Positions 1 to 7,694 of a DNA stretch of 7,694 bases are shown here, one piece after another; the first letter of the stretch is position 1, and every line of letters starts with the position of its first letter. The stretch comes from Candidatus Latescibacterota bacterium (GTDB taxonomy: Bacteria; JAAXHH01; JABIQT01): assembly GCA_018667995.1 (NCBI GenBank), contig JABIQT010000741.1, positions 1 to 7,694 of the forward strand, read 5' to 3'. Below the pieces are notes generated by a model. That model was not told the DNA's origin and made no database searches. It saw nothing but the letters and a program-made list of their open reading frames with translations. Position numbers and translations under genes: made by a program.

Positions 1-302
1 CAGTCTACATCGTAGTAACCATAGTCACCGCGCTCGACATACTGATCCATTCGAGATTGGGGCAGAGTCTCGACATCATGAACCTCGAAACCCTCCTGGC
101 GAACGCGAACCACGTGCGGACCACGTCCTGCCAGAACAACCGGATATCCACGATTCCGGAGTGCCCTCGCCAGAACCAGAGGACGAATCGTATGAGCGAG
201 AGCTTGCCCGTGAAAGAAGATCAGAACGGGCAAACTGTTCCGATCTAGCCTGAGGGAGGCAGCTATTTGCCCGATCCTCTCTACGGCACTTCCAAATTTC
301 AT
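1..302 (-). CDS. Probable GT-B fold glycosyltransferase, N-terminal part (runs off left edge)
   Basis: An open frame with no stop continues through the left edge; 100 residues are visible from the ATG at 302-300. After a leader of about 24 residues comes a hydrophobic first strand (PVLIFF, residues 25-30), then HGQALAHTIRPLVLARALR and RGYPVVLAGRG (to about 61), then a turn and GFEVHDV. This strand, glycine/histidine loop, long helix and second strand is the start of the N-terminal Rossmann domain of MurG/UGT/YjiC-type glycosyltransferases, which move a sugar from a nucleotide donor to a lipid, glycan or small molecule. The donor-binding C-terminal half is outside the window, so substrate and activity cannot be judged. 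No clear Shine-Dalgarno precedes this ATG. The frame stays open upstream, with in-frame ATGs at 371, 377, 383 and 389 inside the preceding small gene, so translation may be coupled or start earlier. It lies 37 bp after the small gene on the same strand, probably in one operon. Confidence 0.7.
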   Translation of the reverse strand, partial: MKFGSAVERIGQIAASLRLDRNSLPVLIFFHGQALAHTIRPLVLARALRNRGYPVVLAGRGPHVVRVRQEGFEVHDVETLPQSRMDQYVERGDYGYYDVD

Positions 303-339
303 CAATGGGGACAGTGGATGTTCTGGAGTCGCGTTCCGA

Positions 340-558
340 TCAATCCGGATACGGCGGCACTTCGTCTCCATCAACATCAACATCAACATCTTCTGCGATA
401 GACAGTGCGGCCTCAAGTCCGGCAGAAAGACTGTCCTCGGTCACCGGCGCGACTTCTGCAAATGCGTCTGCTGGTCGCACGGCTATTGAAGCCAATAGGA
501 GAGCAATACCTCCAACTACGTAGTCGGTTGCTCTACGAACCGTACCTACTCGTCTCAT
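340..558 (-). CDS. Small acidic protein with N-terminal signal peptide or membrane anchor (72 aa)
   Basis: Starts at ATG 558-556, chosen because a perfect GGAGG lies five bases upstream (564-568); a longer frame back to a TTG at 642 has no such support. The N-terminus has a basic stretch (RRVGTVRR, residues 2-9), a hydrophobic core (about 13-27, VVGGIALLLASIAV) and then RPADAFA. This resembles a signal peptide with a possible signal peptidase I site after A32 or A34, or a single signal anchor with a basic cytoplasmic end. The remainder is short and acidic, with an EDVDVDVDGDE run encoded by a hexanucleotide repeat. No family is recognised and no function is claimed. It is the first gene after the control region at 559-872 and precedes the glycosyltransferase by 37 bp, so it may help, anchor or be exported with that pathway. 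A short protein can arise by chance, but the ribosome binding site and the topology signal argue that it is real. Confidence 0.55.
   Translation of the reverse strand: MRRVGTVRRATDYVVGGIALLLASIAVRPADAFAEVAPVTEDSLSAGLEAALSIAEDVDVDVDGDEVPPYPD
369..390. repeat. Hexanucleotide tandem repeat (CATCAA)3.7
   Basis: Three full copies and one partial copy of CATCAA on the plus strand lie inside the small gene. On the coding strand this reads as repeated GTTGAT, giving Val-Asp dipeptides in the acidic tail. In the frame of the downstream glycosyltransferase the same repeat supplies a series of in-frame ATG codons. A six-base unit keeps frame when copies are gained or lost. Confidence 0.85.
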
Positions 559-563
559 TTCAT

Positions 564-568
564 CCTCC
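564..568 (-). promoter_or_regulatory. Ribosome binding site of the small protein gene
   Basis: GGAGG on the minus strand, five bases before ATG 558. It is a strong match to the anti-Shine-Dalgarno sequence and decides the start of the 72-residue protein against the upstream TTG. Confidence 0.7.
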
Positions 569-637
569 AGATGGGTTCTATAGGGAGTGGTCGCGAATAG
601 TTTCACACACACTCGACTTGTATCTGGAGAACTACAT

Positions 638-653
638 ATCAATAAGCGTGCCT
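638..653 (-). promoter_or_regulatory. Candidate sigma-54-like promoter (-24/-12) for the small protein and glycosyltransferase
   Basis: The minus strand reads AGGCACGCTTATTGAT, compared with the sigma-54 consensus TGGCACG-N4-TTGCW. GGCACG and TTG match with correct spacing. The first T is A, and the -12 GC is GA, a mismatch at a highly conserved base, so strength is uncertain. The predicted start is near 627, leaving a leader of about 69 bases before ATG 558. Support comes mainly from context: an enhancer-binding-protein gene lies immediately upstream, and two dyads lie at remote enhancer distance. Confidence 0.4.
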
Positions 654-698
654 ATACAAACAGTGGCACTCGGCTATGACCTCAAGTGGAGTTATTAC

Positions 699-715
699 AA
701 CAACTTCTAGTTGTT
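699..715. repeat. Short perfect inverted repeat, 7-bp arms
   Basis: AACAACT, a TCT spacer, then AGTTGTT. The arms are A/T-rich. On the minus strand the hairpin is followed by GTAATAAC, which has no proper U-tract, so it is a poor intrinsic terminator. Its centre is about 80 bp before the predicted start at 627, so it could instead be a protein-binding dyad (possibly for the AraC-like protein) or have no function. Confidence 0.4.
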
Positions 716-757
716 TTCGTTTGATCTGTTAAGTATCTCGATCACATACATCAAGAA

Positions 758-773
758 GACGATATTTCGTAAT
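758..773 (+). promoter_or_regulatory. Candidate enhancer (UAS) site, proximal dyad
   Basis: GACGATATTTCGTAAT. It contains the dyad ACGA-TATT-TCGT (759-770) and is the exact reverse complement of 838-853. Centres of the two sites are 82 bp apart, close to eight helical turns. It lies about 138 bp before the predicted start at 627, within the usual range for binding of a sigma-54 activator dimer. Confidence 0.5.
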
Positions 774-837
774 TAAATCTTGGATAGCGCACATGATTTC
801 AGCTGAATACGTTTATTAACAGCATGTTACACTATGC

Positions 838-853
838 ATTACGAAATATCGTC
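838..853 (-). promoter_or_regulatory. Candidate enhancer (UAS) site, distal dyad
   Basis: ATTACGAAATATCGTC, the perfect inverted copy of 758-773, containing ACGA-AATA-TCGT (841-852). It lies 20 bp past the stop codon of the upstream activator gene and about 220 bp before the predicted downstream start. Its 8-mer AAATATCG (844-851) recurs at 4812-4819, upstream of the araC-like gene. Confidence 0.5.
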
Positions 854-864
854 ACATCAATCTG

Positions 865-886
865 ATTCTACGCTAATTCGTAGAAT
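865..886 (-). terminator. Hairpin enclosing the activator stop codon
   Basis: Perfect 8-bp arms (ATTCTACG at 865-872 and CGTAGAAT at 879-886) with a six-base loop. On the coding strand the loop is AATTAG and its last three bases are the TAG stop of the activator. No U-tract follows, so it is not a classical intrinsic terminator. It may mark the 3' end, stabilise the message or slow ribosomes at termination. The paralogous gene ends in the same way at 4915-4934. Confidence 0.5.
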
Positions 887-3800
887 TACCACCAGGGGGC
901 ATCTGCTTCTTCTTGAATTGCACACCCAGGCGCTCAAGCCGACTACGCAGAGTTGTGGGCTTCACTTGCAGAATTGCCGCCGCCCCCCGGGGACCGTGGA
1001 TCACTCCGCCGGTATGCTCAAGGACTCGTTGCAAATACTGGCGCTCGTCTTCCTCCAACGGGAGAAACCCTTCTGGATCCCTGTTATTCGATATATCAAG
1101 TCGAGTCTCGATACCTAGAATCTCCATCGAGATTAGGCCACCACCTGACAGAATCACTGCCCTCTGGAGAGTATGTTCGAGTTCTCGGACATTGCCCGGC
1201 CATTCGTAGTGTAGCATTGATTCCATGGCCTCAGAGGAGATCTGTGGAACTGGTCGACTAAGATGAGAAGCGAAAGCTGCGACGAAGTGCATAGCAAGAG
1301 CCGGCGTATCTTCCCTACGATCTCTCAATGGCGGAATCTCGATTGGGAACACATTCAGCCTATAAAAGAGGTCGGCTCGGTATCTCTTTTCCTGAATTGC
1401 CTCGGCAAGATTGCGGTTTGTAGCGGCGACAACTCGGACGTCAACATTGATGGTCTGAGTCCCTCCAACTCTTTCAATTGTCTTGTCCTGCAACACCTTC
1501 AGCAGACGCGCCTGCGAATCGAGCGGCAGATCTCCTATCTCGTCTAGGAAGATGGTGCCGGCATGAGCCAACTCGAATTTGCCAAGCTTCTTGGAGAATG
1601 CTCCAGTGAACGCGCCTTTCTCATGACCGAAAAGCTCACTGTCGACCAGGCCTTCTTGCAGGGACCCACAGTTCACATAGACGAACGGCCCACCACGCCG
1701 CTCGCTGCATTCGTGGATTCTCTTAGCTGCGATCCCCTTGCCCGTACCAGTCTCGCCCAAAACTAGCACTGTGAGATCCGTCCATGCGACCTCTTGGATC
1801 TGCCTTATCACTTCTGCCATTCGATCGCTGTCTCCAACGAACTCACCCTGCGCACCCTCTGCGCTTAGGGCCTCGCGATATGCGTTTAGCCGAGGATCAG
1901 CAACTACCACGAAAGTGAGCTCTGCCACCTCCGAGTAGTTCAGGTCGCGGTCGATTGCTTGGACCTCTAGTCTATAATCTCCAGGACGCAATCCCGGATA
2001 CTCGACGTGCGAGACTCCGATTTGAATCCAGTCCCTGTCGTAGCCTATCAAGCGGTGTCGGTATACCAGATCGCGGCTTGCGTCGACGTCGCTGACACCG
2101 CGGAGATTAATGGTTAGCCGGCTGGCCGAGTCAGGAATCTGAATATCCTCTGAGGCCGAGTAATCCCTGTCAGCCGTGATTCCCAGTATCTCAACTCGCA
2201 CTAACCCCTTGACCAGCTGCCTTTCGAGCAAACCCCCGTTCGTCGCGATCCAAGTACTTGAGCTGCCTTCAGCGATTGACGATACGGTATTGCAGAAGGG
2301 ATTTCCGGGCACGGTAATCACCTGGAAAACGTCTCCGTCATGGAGGCATAACCCTCCGCCTTCCGTGCCGATCCAGATCCGACCCTCTTTATCACATGAT
2401 AGGGACGTGATCAGCTCAGAGGACAGACCGTCAGACATACCAAACGAGAGGATATAGTCCTCTTCAAGAACAGCGAGCCCCTCGTTCGACCCGACCCAGA
2501 GCCGGCCACCAGGGCCAACACAGAGGGCATTTACGGCGACGCCAGACAGGCCGGAGGCTCTCCTAAAGGATTCACCATCAAGCTCAGCAATCCCGTCCCA
2601 CACATTGGGCTGCGCAGATCCCAAGTAAACCTCTCCAGCAGGACCAGTCGCAATTGCGGACACCCTTGGGGGAGCAAATAGAGACCCTGATGGGCTAAAA
2701 TACGTTAGGGAGTCGGGATCATCGTAGACCGCAAAGCCGCTGCCGACGCTCGAGGCGACCCATATTCGACCGGCGGAGTCCTCCTCCATGCAATCAACTG
2801 CGTAACCAACCATTCGTTCGTCTGCAGCGCAGGGCACGCATGAGTCGCCATCGTGGGTGTATATGTATCCGTTCCTCTTACCAATCCACAAGAGCCCTTG
2901 TCGATCCCGAAGGACAGAAGTGACATCCGGACTGCCATGCGCTTGGGCAACCCAAGCATCTGCCACACCGAAATGCCCATCTGAATCACGCAGAACTAGA
3001 CCGTCGGACGTCGCGACGGACAAGGTTCGCGTAGCGTCTACAGCGTGGATAGGAGCACCCGAAAGACCGCTTTCCGTCGAATGCAGCTTGAGTCTTTCGC
3101 GATCGTGACGATATAATCCAAACCCGTAGGAACCAATCCACAACCTCGCTCTGCCGTCCACAGCCAGGGAGCGCCAGAGAGGCACTGAAAGATCGCAGAT
3201 CTGAGTTGCGACGCCGTCGTCGAGAAGGAAAATCTCGCCTGAGCGCGTTGAGACGACAGTCCCTACGTCCTCATGAGTGACTGCAGCCTCTACCGACGCC
3301 CCTAAGGCCTCAATTCTCCTCAGTTCGTTCTTCTCGTATAGGTACGTCCCGTGGGCAGATCCTATCAGAATCCCATCACTGTGGGGTGCAATGACCTTTA
3401 TGTGCTGGAACTCAACCCGGTCTGGCATGACCTGCTGAAACACACCCCGCCTTGCAACATAGAGCCCGTCACCTGCGAGCCAGACGTCTCCTCCCAGAGA
3501 AACGACAGAAGCTATGCTAGCACCTCCAACTGACGAAGTCTCACTGAGATCGTGCACCAACATCTCTGATCCTGTCCAGTGAGCGACTGCAGCACTTTGG
3601 CCAGGCTGTCGATCAAGACCGAACCATACGTGGTTATCCCCCCCCACCGCAGAGCCCCAGAGACAGCCTCTCCCGCCCGTGCTGTGAGAGGCAAAAACAC
3701 CATCTGTGTAGGATGTTACCCCGCCATCGGTTCCAACCCAAAGGACTCCATCATGATCCTCGCAGAGCGAAAACACACTCCGCCCACTTACCCCCTCTCG

Positions 3801-3983
3801 CTCTGTGTATATCTGAAAGTCGTCCCCGTCGAAGGCAGCGAGCCCACGTGAATGTGTGCCAATCCAGAGATTCCCAGCATCAGTGCAGTGAAGGCTTTCG
3901 ATCTTCATATCGGGCAAGCCATCCCGAATACCGAAGTGCTCCGACATTCCCTGAGGACCATTTAGACTTGAGGTCAACGGCAT
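873..3983 (-). CDS. Propeller-sensor sigma-54 activator (reg_prop / Y_Y_Y / AAA+ / Fis-type HTH), complete copy
   Basis: 1036 residues from ATG 3983, ten bases after the araC-like stop; an ATG at 3947 and an overlapping TTG at 4043 are alternatives, none with a strong Shine-Dalgarno. Residues about 15-590 carry recurring LWIGT/LWVGT-type motifs followed by glycine-rich turns, typical of two-component regulator propellers and perhaps enough for two propellers. A Y_Y_Y-like beta domain follows (about 621-693). The sigma-54 AAA+ domain has Walker A GETGTGKG (743-750), the sigma-contacting GAFTGA loop (790-795), Walker B IFLDE (D814, E815), arginine-finger candidates R869 and R875, and WPGNVRELEH. 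A Fis-type HTH ends the protein (about 996-1021, PTTLRSRLERLG). All key catalytic residues are present, so it should hydrolyse ATP to open sigma-54 holoenzyme promoters. No signal peptide, transmembrane segment or kinase was seen, so ligand sensing is inferred to be cytoplasmic and direct. The ligand is unknown. Confidence 0.9.
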   Translation of the reverse strand: MPLTSSLNGPQGMSEHFGIRDGLPDMKIESLHCTDAGNLWIGTHSRGLAAFDGDDFQIYTEREGVSGRSVFSLCEDHDGVLWVGTDGGVTSYTDGVFASHSTGGRGCLWGSAVGGDNHVWFGLDRQPGQSAAVAHWTGSEMLVHDLSETSSVGGASIASVVSLGGDVWLAGDGLYVARRGVFQQVMPDRVEFQHIKVIAPHSDGILIGSAHGTYLYEKNELRRIEALGASVEAAVTHEDVGTVVSTRSGEIFLLDDGVATQICDLSVPLWRSLAVDGRARLWIGSYGFGLYRHDRERLKLHSTESGLSGAPIHAVDATRTLSVATSDGLVLRDSDGHFGVADAWVAQAHGSPDVTSVLRDRQGLLWIGKRNGYIYTHDGDSCVPCAADERMVGYAVDCMEEDSAGRIWVASSVGSGFAVYDDPDSLTYFSPSGSLFAPPRVSAIATGPAGEVYLGSAQPNVWDGIAELDGESFRRASGLSGVAVNALCVGPGGRLWVGSNEGLAVLEEDYILSFGMSDGLSSELITSLSCDKEGRIWIGTEGGGLCLHDGDVFQVITVPGNPFCNTVSSIAEGSSSTWIATNGGLLERQLVKGLVRVEILGITADRDYSASEDIQIPDSASRLTINLRGVSDVDASRDLVYRHRLIGYDRDWIQIGVSHVEYPGLRPGDYRLEVQAIDRDLNYSEVAELTFVVVADPRLNAYREALSAEGAQGEFVGDSDRMAEVIRQIQEVAWTDLTVLVLGETGTGKGIAAKRIHECSERRGGPFVYVNCGSLQEGLVDSELFGHEKGAFTGAFSKKLGKFELAHAGTIFLDEIGDLPLDSQARLLKVLQDKTIERVGGTQTINVDVRVVAATNRNLAEAIQEKRYRADLFYRLNVFPIEIPPLRDRREDTPALAMHFVAAFASHLSRPVPQISSEAMESMLHYEWPGNVRELEHTLQRAVILSGGGLISMEILGIETRLDISNNRDPEGFLPLEEDERQYLQRVLEHTGGVIHGPRGAAAILQVKPTTLRSRLERLGVQFKKKQMPPGGNSTN

Positions 3984-3993
3984 CCGAGGGCTG

Positions 3994-4692
3994 CTATCTT
4001 CCAACTCGACGATTGTATCGGAACTCCCTCGGAGTAATGCCAATCACGGAGCAGAACGTCTCCGTAAAACGAGATGGAGTGCGGAAACCACATTGATCCG
4101 CGATCATGTAGAGAGGCTCGTCGCTTTGGATGAGCAGTTCACTGGCCTTACTGATTCTGCGTTGCGCCAATCGCGTCCTGAAGGTCAGACCGAGATCCTC
4201 TCTAAAAAGCCTTCCCACGTATCCGGCCGTGATGCCGAATCTCGCGGCAACGCTGTTCATGTCCAAATGTTGATCACCGAATTCCTGCTCGACGAAATCA
4301 TCCAGCTTAGTTGCCAGACAACTACCTGCCCTCTTCCTGTACCTGCAACAATCATTCAGGATAGGGTTGATGTTTTCGGCGGTCAGCGGTCCCACTATGT
4401 AATCCTTAACACCAGCCCGAAATGCTCGAATGACAAAGTCAGCTACAGGGGTTCCGACTACTACGAAATCAGTCTGTCTTGGAAGCTCATTGGTCCCGAA
4501 ATATTCCTTGAGACTGTCGAGATCAAGCGCTTCTTCCGCCCAGAAGGACAAGATACAATCCGAGCCTTCGACCCACTCCCATGCATCCATGTTTGCGCTG
4601 GCCTCGACTACAGTGACAGAGGCCTCGCTAGTTGCACTCCGAACGGCTGACACCCCCACATCACCCACTACCAATATCAAATTGTTCTTCAT
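3994..4692 (-). CDS. AraC-family regulator with degenerate receiver domain (232 aa)
   Basis: Starts at ATG 4692, with AAAGGAG nine bases upstream. Residues about 4-110 follow the receiver fold: LILVVGD as strand 1, DFVVVGTP (75-82) and AFRAGVKDYIVGPL (90-103) as the last strands. The usual acidic pair is reduced to G10-D11. The phospho-acceptor aspartate is missing where CILSF (46-50) occupies strand 3, and the conserved lysine before proline is G101. Phosphorelay is therefore unlikely, and this is probably a pseudo-receiver used for dimerisation or protein contact. Residues about 126-228 form an AraC-type DNA-binding domain with two helix-turn-helix units (about 143-165 and 193-216; YMIADQCGF and a final GITPREFR are typical). 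It sits first in an apparent operon with the sigma-54 activator ten bases downstream, so the two probably act on the same promoters. AraC proteins usually work with sigma-70-type polymerase, which makes this pairing unusual. Targets are unknown. Confidence 0.88.
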   Translation of the reverse strand: MKNNLILVVGDVGVSAVRSATSEASVTVVEASANMDAWEWVEGSDCILSFWAEEALDLDSLKEYFGTNELPRQTDFVVVGTPVADFVIRAFRAGVKDYIVGPLTAENINPILNDCCRYRKRAGSCLATKLDDFVEQEFGDQHLDMNSVAARFGITAGYVGRLFREDLGLTFRTRLAQRRISKASELLIQSDEPLYMIADQCGFRTPSRFTETFCSVIGITPREFRYNRRVGR

Positions 4693-4701
4693 CTGGCCGA
4701 T

Positions 4702-4708
4702 CTCCTTT
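4702..4708 (-). promoter_or_regulatory. Ribosome binding site of the araC-like gene
   Basis: AAAGGAG on the minus strand, nine bases before ATG 4692. It fixes the start of the araC-like gene and falls just inside the short leader predicted from the sigma-54 promoter. Confidence 0.75.
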
Positions 4709-4723
4709 CGTTGAGATCGACAT

Positions 4724-4740
4724 TGCCATTATCGTGCCAA
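4724..4740 (-). promoter_or_regulatory. Sigma-54 (-24/-12) promoter of the araC-activator operon
   Basis: The minus strand reads TTGGCACGATAATGGCA. The -24 block TTGGCACG matches the consensus YTGGCACG completely. The invariant GG (4738-4737) and GC (4726-4725) are ten bases apart as required. The only departure in the -12 block is TGGC for TTGC. The predicted transcription start is near 4713, giving a leader of about 21 bases that includes the ribosome binding site. Orientation and position fit the araC-like gene and the activator behind it, so the operon is probably activated by one or both of the sigma-54 activators encoded here. Confidence 0.72.
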
Positions 4741-4914
4741 TCAGCCTAATGCAGTTCACGCCCTTGTTTTTTATACACTTATGGATGGTTCTTCGGTTTC
4801 TTCAATACGTTAAATATCGCGACAAATAGACCGATTCGTTCACATGTATAACCTTAAGTTGATATTAAACAAATAGTTATATTACTATTCGACATTTCAC
4901 GCATCCAGTTATAC
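4741..4914. promoter_or_regulatory. AT-rich upstream region of the araC operon with possible enhancer half-sites
   Basis: No gene is seen. AAATATCG (4812-4819) repeats the core of the distal dyad at 844-851 and lies about 100 bp before the predicted start at 4713. GATATT (4861-4866) repeats the core of the other orientation about 150 bp before it. Neither copy has the full ACGA-N4-TCGT dyad, so assignment as activator binding sites is tentative. Confidence 0.3.
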
Positions 4915-4934
4915 AACCGCGCTATTTCGCGGTT
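4915..4934 (-). terminator. Hairpin enclosing the stop codon of the second activator
   Basis: Perfect 7-bp arms (AACCGCG at 4915-4921 and CGCGGTT at 4928-4934) around a six-base loop. On the coding strand the loop is AAATAG, ending in the TAG stop. In the gene's direction only GTATAAC follows; in the plus direction a run of five T overlaps the end of the stem. It may act as a weak or bidirectional terminator. Confidence 0.5.
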
Positions 4935-7694
4935 TTTCGCACAGCTTTCACACCAAGCTTTCTTATTCGTGAGCGCAACGTGCTCGGATTAATGTTGAGA
5001 ATCGCGGCCGCTCCCTCCGCACCATCAACTCGTCCAGAAGTTAAGACCAATACTCGCTCAATGTATGCTCGTTGATTCTCATCCAAGGTCTGTAGACGGA
5101 ATTCATCCTTCACCTCAGCCTGTCCTGTACCCATGACCGGGAGGTGATGGACTTCCAATACAGAATCAGCAACAACCACGGCGGCAAGAATCGCATGCTC
5201 GAGTTCTCTGATGTTCCCAGGCCAATCATGCGCCTCGAGAGCCGCCATGAGTTCTCTGCTGAGAGTTGGCTTCTTCTTCTGAGTTCGAATTGCTGCGGCT
5301 TCAACAAAGTGCATCACAAGATCCGGCAGATCGCCAAGGCGCTCTCTGAGTGGTGGAACGTTGATCGTGAAGGCGGCCAGCCTATAGTAGAGATCTTCGC
5401 GGAACGTGCCTTCGTTAATCTTCTCCGACAATACGTGGTTTGTAGCTGAAACAACGCGAACATCTACCACTTGGCGCTCCTCACCTCCAACGCGGCTCAT
5501 CGACCCATCCTGAAGGACATGGAGCAAACGTGCCTGACACCCATGGGGGAGATCGCCCACTTCATCTAAGAAGAGAGTCCCCCCATGGGCCAGTTCAAAC
5601 GCCCCTGCCCTGGATCGAATTGCGCCAGTAAAGGCCCCTCTCTCATGTCCGAAGAGTTCACTATCGACGAGACCTTCGCTCAAACCTCCACAATTGAGTT
5701 GGATGAATGGGCCATCAGACCGCGTGCTACCCTCATGGATGTGCCTTGCAGTAACGCCTTTTCCAGTCCCGCTCTCGCCCATGATTAAGACCGGAACATC
5801 TGTACGAGCAACTACAGCCGCTCGACGAACCAGAATTCTTGTCCCCTCGGAATCGCCATAAACCGCGATGTTCGATTTAGATGACTTGATAGCGTCCTGA
5901 TAGCCGATCGTCCTTGCATCTTCCACAACTCTAACCGGGATTCGCCGAATTGCTGAATACGAGTGATCCGGATCTCTTATCTGGAGGGACAGATGCTGCG
6001 CTCCCAAGAGGTCAAACTTCGCCCTGAACTTTAAGTCAGAGACCTGCCATTCTCTGCCTTCTATTCGCCAACGAATCGTGAGATTGCGCGAATTCCACTT
6101 CGAGCTTGTGGCTGATACTTGGACCCAATGATCCTCGCCGGCTTCAATCACGACTTCCTCACACGCGGGGTAGCCGTAAGAAGAGCCGATCTGGACTCGC
6201 TTGCAGACGGGAGGTCGCTGTCCGTAGTCGAACCAGGCAATTCCGGCGTTCGTGGCTATGATTGCCCTACGGCTCTGCCGATCGATTGAGATGTCGTTGA
6301 CCGCCTGATACTGGGGTATCAATGGGAATGGTAGCCGCGTGCCCGTCTCACCGACAGCGCAGACGAGCCCGCCTCCTTCCGTTCCGACGAGGATTCTCTC
6401 CGATTCAATTTCCTCAATCGAAGAAACCATACCAACTATCCCCAGGACCCTTTCCGTTCGACAAGCCCTGTCTACAGTTGAGAGCACGTTCGTTCCTCCG
6501 ATCCAAAGACGGTCATCTGAATCATATAGAGTTGTCGTCGAATGCTCGCAGTTGAGTACAGCATCGATTGTCCCATTGGCTAAGACTCCGATGATCCTGC
6601 TGTCAGAGGAGGCGCCAGAGAGAGCCAACCAGAACCCTCCTCCTGTTCTGTTCGAAAGGGCGGTTACGGCTGTTATCGGAATCTCGCCAATTTCTTGGAC
6701 CTGACTTAGTCTTGGAGCGAGTGTGCCAAAGCTATTGGGACCTCTCCCTCTGTAGTAGACCGTGCCGTCGACGGCCACTATCTGCGCGATACTTAGGCCA
6801 CGTAACTCGGGAGGGCTGTCTCTCGACCTAATGGTCATCGTCTGAATTGAATAGACAAGGCCATTTCGACTTCCGACCCATAGTTCTCCGTCGGTTGCAC
6901 ACAGACTCGTCACCGAGGCCGAAGAGAGCCCATGCCCTTGCGGCGAGGCAAGTAATCTGCCATCGGCCAAGACCGCCCATAGCCCCTTTGTTGTACCAAT
7001 CCAAGTTGTGCCATCGGTATCAACTTCAACGGCAAGCACGCTGGAGTCTGGCATTTCATCGGTTTCTAGCAGCCTCAGGATGGAATCGTCATAGCAGCAG
7101 ACGCCGCCGCCAAATCCCGAGACCCAGAGGCGCCCGCGACTGTCAATCTGCACGCCACGCCACAATGATGTAATAGGCGACTGCCGTTTCTGACTGTACC
7201 CTTGCCCGTCGAATTCGGCGATTTCTCCATCACTAGTCGATGCCCAAATCTTCCCGTCACGAACCACAACGCTCTCTGCTCCTCCTTCACTACTCACCTT
7301 CTCTACGGATGTGGCAGAGACCTCGTAGATTCCGCCCTCTGCAGCGACTATTGCAGTTCCATCGTCGACAGTCGCCAACGCCCTCGCGTCATTTAGCTGC
7401 CAAGGTAGCACAAGAAGCTTCTTACCTTGAACCGAGTACGAAATGTGACCGATCGCCATGAGCAGACCAGAGACTCTAGCAACAGAATGAATTGATATCC
7501 CCTCAGACCCTTCGGCCTCGATGAGCTCCAGGTCACTGCCATCCCAACGCACCACTCCGGCCGGCCTACCCGGCCGCCGATCGAGTCCGAACCAGAGGTC
7601 ACCCGACTCGTCCATGCAGCTTCCCCACAGAAAACTGTAGTCGAGGGATACGTCGAGGATCTCGAAAGTGGTACCGTCATACCGCGTGAGTCCG
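4922..7694 (-). CDS. Propeller-sensor sigma-54 activator, paralogue (5' end outside window)
   Basis: 923 residues are visible; the frame is open through the right edge. An ATG at 7615 is internal, because the residues before it (for example SFLWGSC) align with the complete paralogue. Visible residues about 1-500 carry propeller repeats, more degenerate than in the paralogue (DLWFGL, RLWVSG, TTWIGT, ELWVGS, RLWIGG). A Y_Y_Y-like domain follows (about 537-590). The AAA+ domain has Walker A GESGTGKG (639-646), GAFTGA (686-691), Walker B LFLDE (D710, E711), arginine-finger candidates R765 and R771, and WPGNIRELEH. The C-terminal HTH (about 892-915, PSTLRSRIRKLG) has nearly the same recognition helix as the paralogue. 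No transmembrane segment separates sensor and output; the N-terminus cannot be checked. From Walker A to WPGN the two proteins align without gaps, while the sensor part differs in length and sequence. The intact motifs imply an active sigma-54 activator with a different ligand but perhaps similar DNA sites. Confidence 0.9.
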   Translation of the reverse strand, partial: GLTRYDGTTFEILDVSLDYSFLWGSCMDESGDLWFGLDRRPGRPAGVVRWDGSDLELIEAEGSEGISIHSVARVSGLLMAIGHISYSVQGKKLLVLPWQLNDARALATVDDGTAIVAAEGGIYEVSATSVEKVSSEGGAESVVVRDGKIWASTSDGEIAEFDGQGYSQKRQSPITSLWRGVQIDSRGRLWVSGFGGGVCCYDDSILRLLETDEMPDSSVLAVEVDTDGTTWIGTTKGLWAVLADGRLLASPQGHGLSSASVTSLCATDGELWVGSRNGLVYSIQTMTIRSRDSPPELRGLSIAQIVAVDGTVYYRGRGPNSFGTLAPRLSQVQEIGEIPITAVTALSNRTGGGFWLALSGASSDSRIIGVLANGTIDAVLNCEHSTTTLYDSDDRLWIGGTNVLSTVDRACRTERVLGIVGMVSSIEEIESERILVGTEGGGLVCAVGETGTRLPFPLIPQYQAVNDISIDRQSRRAIIATNAGIAWFDYGQRPPVCKRVQIGSSYGYPACEEVVIEAGEDHWVQVSATSSKWNSRNLTIRWRIEGREWQVSDLKFRAKFDLLGAQHLSLQIRDPDHSYSAIRRIPVRVVEDARTIGYQDAIKSSKSNIAVYGDSEGTRILVRRAAVVARTDVPVLIMGESGTGKGVTARHIHEGSTRSDGPFIQLNCGGLSEGLVDSELFGHERGAFTGAIRSRAGAFELAHGGTLFLDEVGDLPHGCQARLLHVLQDGSMSRVGGEERQVVDVRVVSATNHVLSEKINEGTFREDLYYRLAAFTINVPPLRERLGDLPDLVMHFVEAAAIRTQKKKPTLSRELMAALEAHDWPGNIRELEHAILAAVVVADSVLEVHHLPVMGTGQAEVKDEFRLQTLDENQRAYIERVLVLTSGRVDGAEGAAAILNINPSTLRSRIRKLGVKAVRKTAK

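Follow-up and report, generated by a model that had tools for sequence, protein, structure and literature searches.

A 7,694-base stretch of DNA from a Candidatus Latescibacterota bacterium, a member of a small and sparsely studied phylum, comprises the entire contig C132 (hereafter the window) and encodes a regulator, propEBP1, in which a double β-propeller sensor is joined directly to a sigma-54 activator. We consider it probable that propEBP1 acts in the cytoplasm as a soluble bacterial enhancer-binding protein (EBP) of the one-component type, which is gated by a ligand and activates its own neighbourhood through sigma-54, because it combines a double propeller and a Y_Y_Y domain with an intact AAA+ domain and a Fis-type helix-turn-helix (HTH), lacks a membrane helix and is followed by sigma-54 promoter-like elements. 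Sensor and DNA-binding output lie in one chain, whose solubility is predicted from its sequence. The parent metagenome-assembled genome (MAG) spans 6.06 Mb in 1,165 contigs. On its minus strand, the window contains, in order, a second propeller-EBP gene (propEBP2), an AraC-family gene (araC), propEBP1, a 72-amino-acid open reading frame (ORF) and the beginning of a glycosyltransferase gene. At the coordinates given in a preliminary description of this DNA, propEBP1 occupies positions 873 to 3,983 of the minus strand as an unbroken ORF of 1,036 amino acids that begins with an ATG at 3,983. This start is preferred because a longer ORF, from a TTG at 4,043, runs into the upstream AraC gene.

Sensor module

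The propEBP1 sensor is about 690–700 residues long. Blade motifs repeat every ~42 residues between residues 28 and 590, and Pfam recognizes Reg_prop repeats (E = 1.5e-29). The C-terminal propeller (residues 306–600; positions 2,184 to 3,068, minus strand) consists of seven four-stranded blades according to a single-sequence fold, Foldseek and VIA. It is followed by a Y_Y_Y domain (residues 634–693; 1,905 to 2,084, minus strand; Pfam E = 1.9e-12), which appears in the model as the strands of a β-sandwich. When residues 300–705 were modelled alone, the prediction contained seven four-stranded blades and the Y_Y_Y sandwich (pLDDT 62, pTM 0.60), and Foldseek ranked the BT4663 periplasmic domain, 4a2l, first (E = 4.3e-13). 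In VIA-align, the same model scored near-equal Z values of about 30 with several unrelated seven-bladed propellers; the fold alone therefore cannot single out the family of hybrid two-component systems (HTCS), but the sequence does, as a sequence search with the sensor retrieves the Bacteroides HTCS sensors 4a2l, 3v9f and 3ott from the PDB. HTCS sensors consist of two seven-bladed propellers and a YYY domain, and have been shown to bind oligosaccharides (PMC3243724).

For the N-terminal propeller (residues 21–305; 3,069 to 3,923, minus strand), the Reg_prop matches, the ~42-residue repeat grid and the strand pattern of a low-confidence model suggest seven four-stranded blades as well. That model, a full-length prediction of both window proteins together, was too poor for a structure search (pLDDT 39.7); its strand pattern is compatible with seven units in the first half. 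Pfam, the sequence relatives and Foldseek together support homology of the propEBP1 sensor to the periplasmic half of Bacteroides HTCS, the type to which the preliminary description had assigned it.

Linker and output module

A linker of 22 residues (residues 694–715; 1,839 to 1,904, minus strand) without a transmembrane (TM) helix leads from the Y_Y_Y domain to the AAA+ domain. Throughout propEBP1, no TM segment or signal peptide was detected, in that no 19-residue Kyte–Doolittle mean reaches 1.6; the highest, 1.39, lies within the AAA+ lid, whereas the best means of two propeller proteins from the same genome are 2.3 (a propeller–SpoIIE phosphatase, C749) and 1.79 (a propeller–kinase, C213). 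Pfam likewise finds no HisKA, HATPase or receiver (REC) match in propEBP1. As kinase, receiver and membrane helix are all missing, propEBP1 is not an HTCS; judged by its domains, it is a bacterial EBP with a new type of sensor.

The output begins with a Sigma54_activat AAA+ domain (PF00158; residues 716–882; 1,338 to 1,838, minus strand; Pfam E = 4.6e-68), in which the Walker A motif GETGTGK is encoded at 1,737–1,757 and the GAFTGA loop that contacts sigma-54 (residues 790–795) at 1,599–1,616, both on the minus strand. An AAA_lid_14 domain (residues 887–957; 1,113 to 1,325, minus strand; Pfam E = 1.9e-21) and a Fis-type HTH (HTH_8; residues 976–1018; 930 to 1,058, minus strand; Pfam E = 2.5e-4) complete the chain. 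An alignment shows Walker A, Walker B (LDEIGD), GAFTGA and the arginine-finger segment to be intact in propEBP1 and in its close full-length paralogues. The closest NCBIfam models are FhlA, NifA and NorR, each matched well under its equivalog cut-off. The preliminary description had proposed a sensor of about 690 residues, followed at once by a complete sigma-54 AAA+ domain and HTH, with no signal peptide or membrane helix, and these proposals hold, with HTH_8 recognized slightly under its cut-off.

Distribution of the fusion

At least six genes of this genome encode the fusion, two in the window, two in a further contig (C603) and one each in C188 and C75; one more was found in genome G011, which represents another family of the same order. 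propEBP1 is 44% identical to its C603 paralogue across the full length, and 34% identical to propEBP2 (4,922 to 7,693, minus strand), which gives Pfam matches to Reg_prop (E = 3.6e-12) and Sigma54_activat (E = 2e-63) and has lost its 5′ end at the contig end. Beyond what the preliminary description contained, the analysis thus points to a paralogue family with a second copy in the window, as well as to the candidate promoters and paired enhancer-like sites described below.

In the genome survey that the preliminary description had called for, the fusion was confined to the window's genome and G011 among the 16 genomes of this phylum searched, and the same two were the only carriers of the full fusion among 384 sampled genomes, mostly of other lineages. 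Searches of 195 genomes from another, EBP-rich phylum and of seven genomes from two further phyla yielded no fusion. These broad searches covered one genome per species and scored 6–12 candidates per genome. Across 72,556 plasmids, no locus matched as much as 80% of the query and no fusion was found; the propeller–Y_Y_Y part occurs on plasmids with diguanylate cyclases and kinases, and the matches reaching the EBP part were, where inspected, ordinary EBPs. The best plasmid tblastn matches, from Rhizobium and Ensifer, were among the candidates rejected on inspection, being EBPs without a propeller. Also rejected were C38 of genome G001, which scored as a fusion and proved to be a propeller–kinase gene beside a separate REC–EBP gene, and C284, an EBP near the C75 group in the tree that has no propeller upstream. 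Scanning the genome contigs with one protein alone gave just one match, of EBP type, and viral-contig scans returned ordinary EBPs only, or no match for the propeller. In the literature searched, a fusion of a propeller to a sigma-54 activator was not found.

The sensor had been called unusual, and for the combination of domains this stands, given its rarity in genomes (2 of 384) and plasmids (0 of 72,556); by size it is not unique, since other very large EBP sensors exist. An 1,823-residue EBP from contig C86 of genome G049 (L125:2169-7637) begins with a protein kinase-like part, continues through ATPase-like and repeat regions and then reaches a GAF-like and sigma-54 AAA+ region, as read from the sequence with no Pfam run.

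In a tree of AAA+ domains, the four cassette proteins of the window and C603 group together (89/90) and C75 pairs with G011 (97/91); the position of C188 is unresolved and most forks are weak. Given the pairing of C75 with G011 and the placement of C188, the fusion may have more than one origin.

Regulatory DNA

Past all six propEBP stop codons examined (two in the window, two in C603, and those of C188 and G011), a −24/−12-like element lies on the sense strand at a distance of 174–225 nt, and each score is matched by 0–2% of shuffles. The published sigma-54 promoter consensus is TGGCAC-N5-7-TTGCT (PMC12316311). In the window, the element TGGCACGATAATGGCA (4,724 to 4,739, minus strand) lies upstream of araC–propEBP1 and fits 11 of 12 positions, a score reached by 0 of 2,000 shuffles; AGGCACGCTTATTGAT (638 to 653, minus strand) lies upstream of the small ORF and fits 10 of 12 (P = 0.0115). 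The C603 elements are TGGCACGCTTCATGAT and TGGCACACTCTGTGCT (10/12), and those of C188 (TGGCACGTACTTTGCA, L002:2445-2460) and G011 (TGGCACGGAGATTGCA, L088:8227-8242) are perfect (12/12). No sigma-70-like promoter was found on the sense strand in the scanned region, 1–5,000.

The interval between propEBP1 and the small ORF also holds two exact copies of an enhancer-like site, ACGAAATATCGT, at 759 to 770 (minus strand) and 841 to 852 (plus strand), 82 nt apart. C603 repeats this arrangement with one exact and one single-mismatch site, again 82 nt apart, and contains additional copies. Genome-wide, the exact 12-mer occurs six times, four of them in the window and C603 cassettes; the copies in C786 and C1018 are single and intragenic and were rejected as sites. 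By eye, the corresponding intervals carry repeats of their own before the −24/−12 element, ATTCCCA/TTGGGAAT in C188 and copies of CTGTACAAAT in G011, suggesting that these regulators may differ in binding specificity. We take the FhlA site to be CATTTCGTACGAAATG, which would hint at a related half-site; this was not used as evidence. One paper likens the FhlA motif to TGT-N10-12-ACA. The simplest reading of these elements is that the genes form local, autoregulated operons, which would be driven by sigma-54 from candidate enhancers 106–199 nt upstream.

Paired cassettes

The window and C603 share their gene order. At one end, window positions 1–263 are 99.2% identical over 263 nt to C603 (L023) 7,366–7,628, within the glycosyltransferase gene; at the other, positions 7,493–7,694 are 99.5% identical over 202 nt to C603 (L023) 1–202, within propEBP2. 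Between these flanks, the regulators are only 34–44% identical, with 44% identity between propEBP1 and its counterpart and 34% between propEBP1 and the other propEBPs; both boundaries are sharp and fall inside the two genes named. The left shared stretch is exact over 141 nt, with the first and single difference at position 142. Since an exact 141-nt overlap also joins contigs C375 and C583, the left junction looks like a branch of the assembly graph.

Two strains with exchanged cassettes and two copies within one genome would both fit. We see slightly less than an even chance that the contigs are two genomic copies with homogenized ends and not alternative alleles from two strains that share the bin: both contigs fall in one bin and their flanks are 99.2–99.5% identical, but the exact 141-nt branch is what would be expected between variants, and a repeat would branch alike.

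The araC gene (3,994 to 4,692, minus strand) encodes an HTH_18 domain (E = 1.1e-17) preceded by ~125 residues to which no Pfam family, receiver included, was matched; the idea of a degenerate receiver was dropped for want of Pfam support. Compared with its C603 counterpart, the HTH domains are 40% identical and the N-terminal ~125 residues do not align. The 72-residue ORF (340 to 558, minus strand) has a signal-peptide-like N-terminus, an acidic tail, a Shine–Dalgarno-like GGAGG ahead of it and no Pfam match. Its C603 equivalent (L023:7062-7280, plus strand), also preceded by a Shine–Dalgarno-like sequence, shares the length, hydrophobic N-terminus and acidic tail and is otherwise dissimilar; secreted peptides are a possible identity for both. 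Only the start of the glycosyltransferase–transglutaminase gene (3 to 302, minus strand) lies in the window, where the contig end cuts it. The full-length gene in C603 (L023:7315-9834, plus strand; Transglut_core and UDPGT/EryCIII-like matches), downstream of the regulators, encodes a transglutaminase-like domain fused to a glycosyltransferase region of the macrolide type.

In ComQXPA pherotypes, signal and receptor genes are variable (PMC4008528), and the two cassettes are like them in their pattern of variability. By this analogy, the window and C603 might be alleles of a swappable, pherotype-like sigma-54 communication cassette whose propellers sense a cognate 72-residue peptide, perhaps modified by the glycosyltransferase–transglutaminase; we regard this as a long shot.

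Discussion

In the mechanism that we infer, propEBP1 would reside in the cytoplasm, where a ligand would bind the propeller sensor and thereby gate the AAA+ ring, as the preliminary description had also proposed. By homology, the likeliest ligand would be a fragment of a glycan or glycoconjugate, though another metabolite or a peptide would be possible; the first guess is a glycan because the homologous HTCS sensors bind oligosaccharides (PMC3243724), and the neighbouring glycosyltransferase genes fit it loosely. A change in the propeller/Y_Y_Y dimer would then travel through the short linker and lead the AAA+ domains to assemble into a ring. Held by the HTH on paired ACGAAATATCGT-type sites, this ring would remodel sigma-54 RNA polymerase at the −24/−12 element 106–199 nt away. 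The likely targets would be local. One would be araC–propEBP1, which follows propEBP2, and the other the small ORF of secreted type together with the glycosyltransferase genes, which follow propEBP1; the outcome would be a short autoregulated cascade.

Several observations weigh against this mechanism. HTH_8 of propEBP1 scores 21.1 bits, slightly below the 22-bit cut-off; the two paralogues in C603 (24.3 bits) and the one in C188 (25.7 bits) clear it. The AGGCACGCTTATTGAT element lacks the canonical GC of the −12 box, and the propEBP2–araC interval of the window contains nothing within three mismatches of ACGAAATATCGT. Counting blades by structure prediction, as the preliminary description had proposed, gave seven in the second propeller, but the count of seven in the first remains indirect because the full-length model is of low confidence. 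Finally, a match to the sigma-54 DNA-binding domain (PF04552) at C643:6-155 speaks for the presence of sigma-54 in this organism and so favours the mechanism, but it covers just part of rpoN, which is cut by the end of the contig.

Propellers are common interaction platforms, and the propeller might instead be a protein-interaction scaffold on which AraC, the second propEBP or a transporter sets AAA+ activity. The joint encoding of two propEBPs and an AraC protein in both cassettes would suit such a role. Yet the nearest solved relatives are ligand-binding HTCS sensors, a type shown to bind oligosaccharides (PMC3243724), and no partner was identified; we judge a scaffold unlikely. The incomplete rpoN would also agree with propEBPs being EBP-derived regulators that no longer depend on sigma-54, like TyrR-type regulators, and some EBP relatives are indeed sigma-70 dependent (PMC3162934). 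Loss of sigma-54 dependence is very improbable, however, with GAFTGA, Walker motifs and lid intact and with −24/−12 elements, two of them perfect, recurring at similar downstream distances. That the fusion is an assembly or frameshift artefact made from separate propeller and EBP genes, conceivable in so fragmented a MAG, is refuted by the same junction in several independent genes (30–44% identity) and in one from another family of the order.

A ligand-gated, one-component EBP is thus the reading that we favour, and it can be set beside known systems. The modules are known; their combination is rare. Bacteroides HTCS (BT4663, BT3049 and BT4673; PDB 4a2l, 3v9f and 3ott) have the same Reg_prop double propeller and Y_Y_Y domain by sequence and fold; propEBP1 differs in lacking signal peptide, TM helix, histidine kinase and receiver, and in having a sigma-54 AAA+ domain and Fis-type HTH as its output. 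With EBPs of the NtrC/FhlA/NifA/NorR class it shares the AAA+ domain with GAFTGA, the lid and the Fis-type HTH, but its regulatory part is a double propeller and Y_Y_Y of ~690 residues instead of a GAF, PAS, ACT, V4R or receiver domain. Propeller–histidine kinases encoded next to REC–EBPs (C213 in the same genome; C38 in G001) have the same types of sensor and output, but split over two proteins and linked by a phosphorelay; in the C213 kinase, the N-terminus is signal-like and Y_Y_Y is followed by a hydrophobic helix. Propeller–diguanylate cyclases on plasmids and the propeller–SpoIIE protein of C749 carry the same sensor with other outputs. In C749 (L085:3286-6354, minus strand), a TM helix follows Y_Y_Y and precedes the SpoIIE phosphatase. 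The G001 C38 protein (L123:2371-6168, minus strand) runs from propeller and Y_Y_Y through a GAF-like region, seen by eye, to a histidine kinase, has no clear TM helix and adjoins a REC–EBP gene. By its architecture, it could resemble an evolutionary intermediate towards the fusion. A possible route would begin with a propeller–TM–kinase and REC–EBP pair as in C213, pass through a kinase without a clear TM helix as in G001 and end in the fusions.

The double-propeller Y_Y_Y sensor has otherwise been studied as a periplasmic module that signals across the membrane to a kinase. The fusion suggests that it can drive an output without membrane helix or phosphorelay, and the step from propeller closure to AAA+ ring assembly would become testable in one purified protein for which promoters and enhancer sites are predicted. 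Within one genome, the same sensor is shuffled among kinases, a phosphatase and EBPs.

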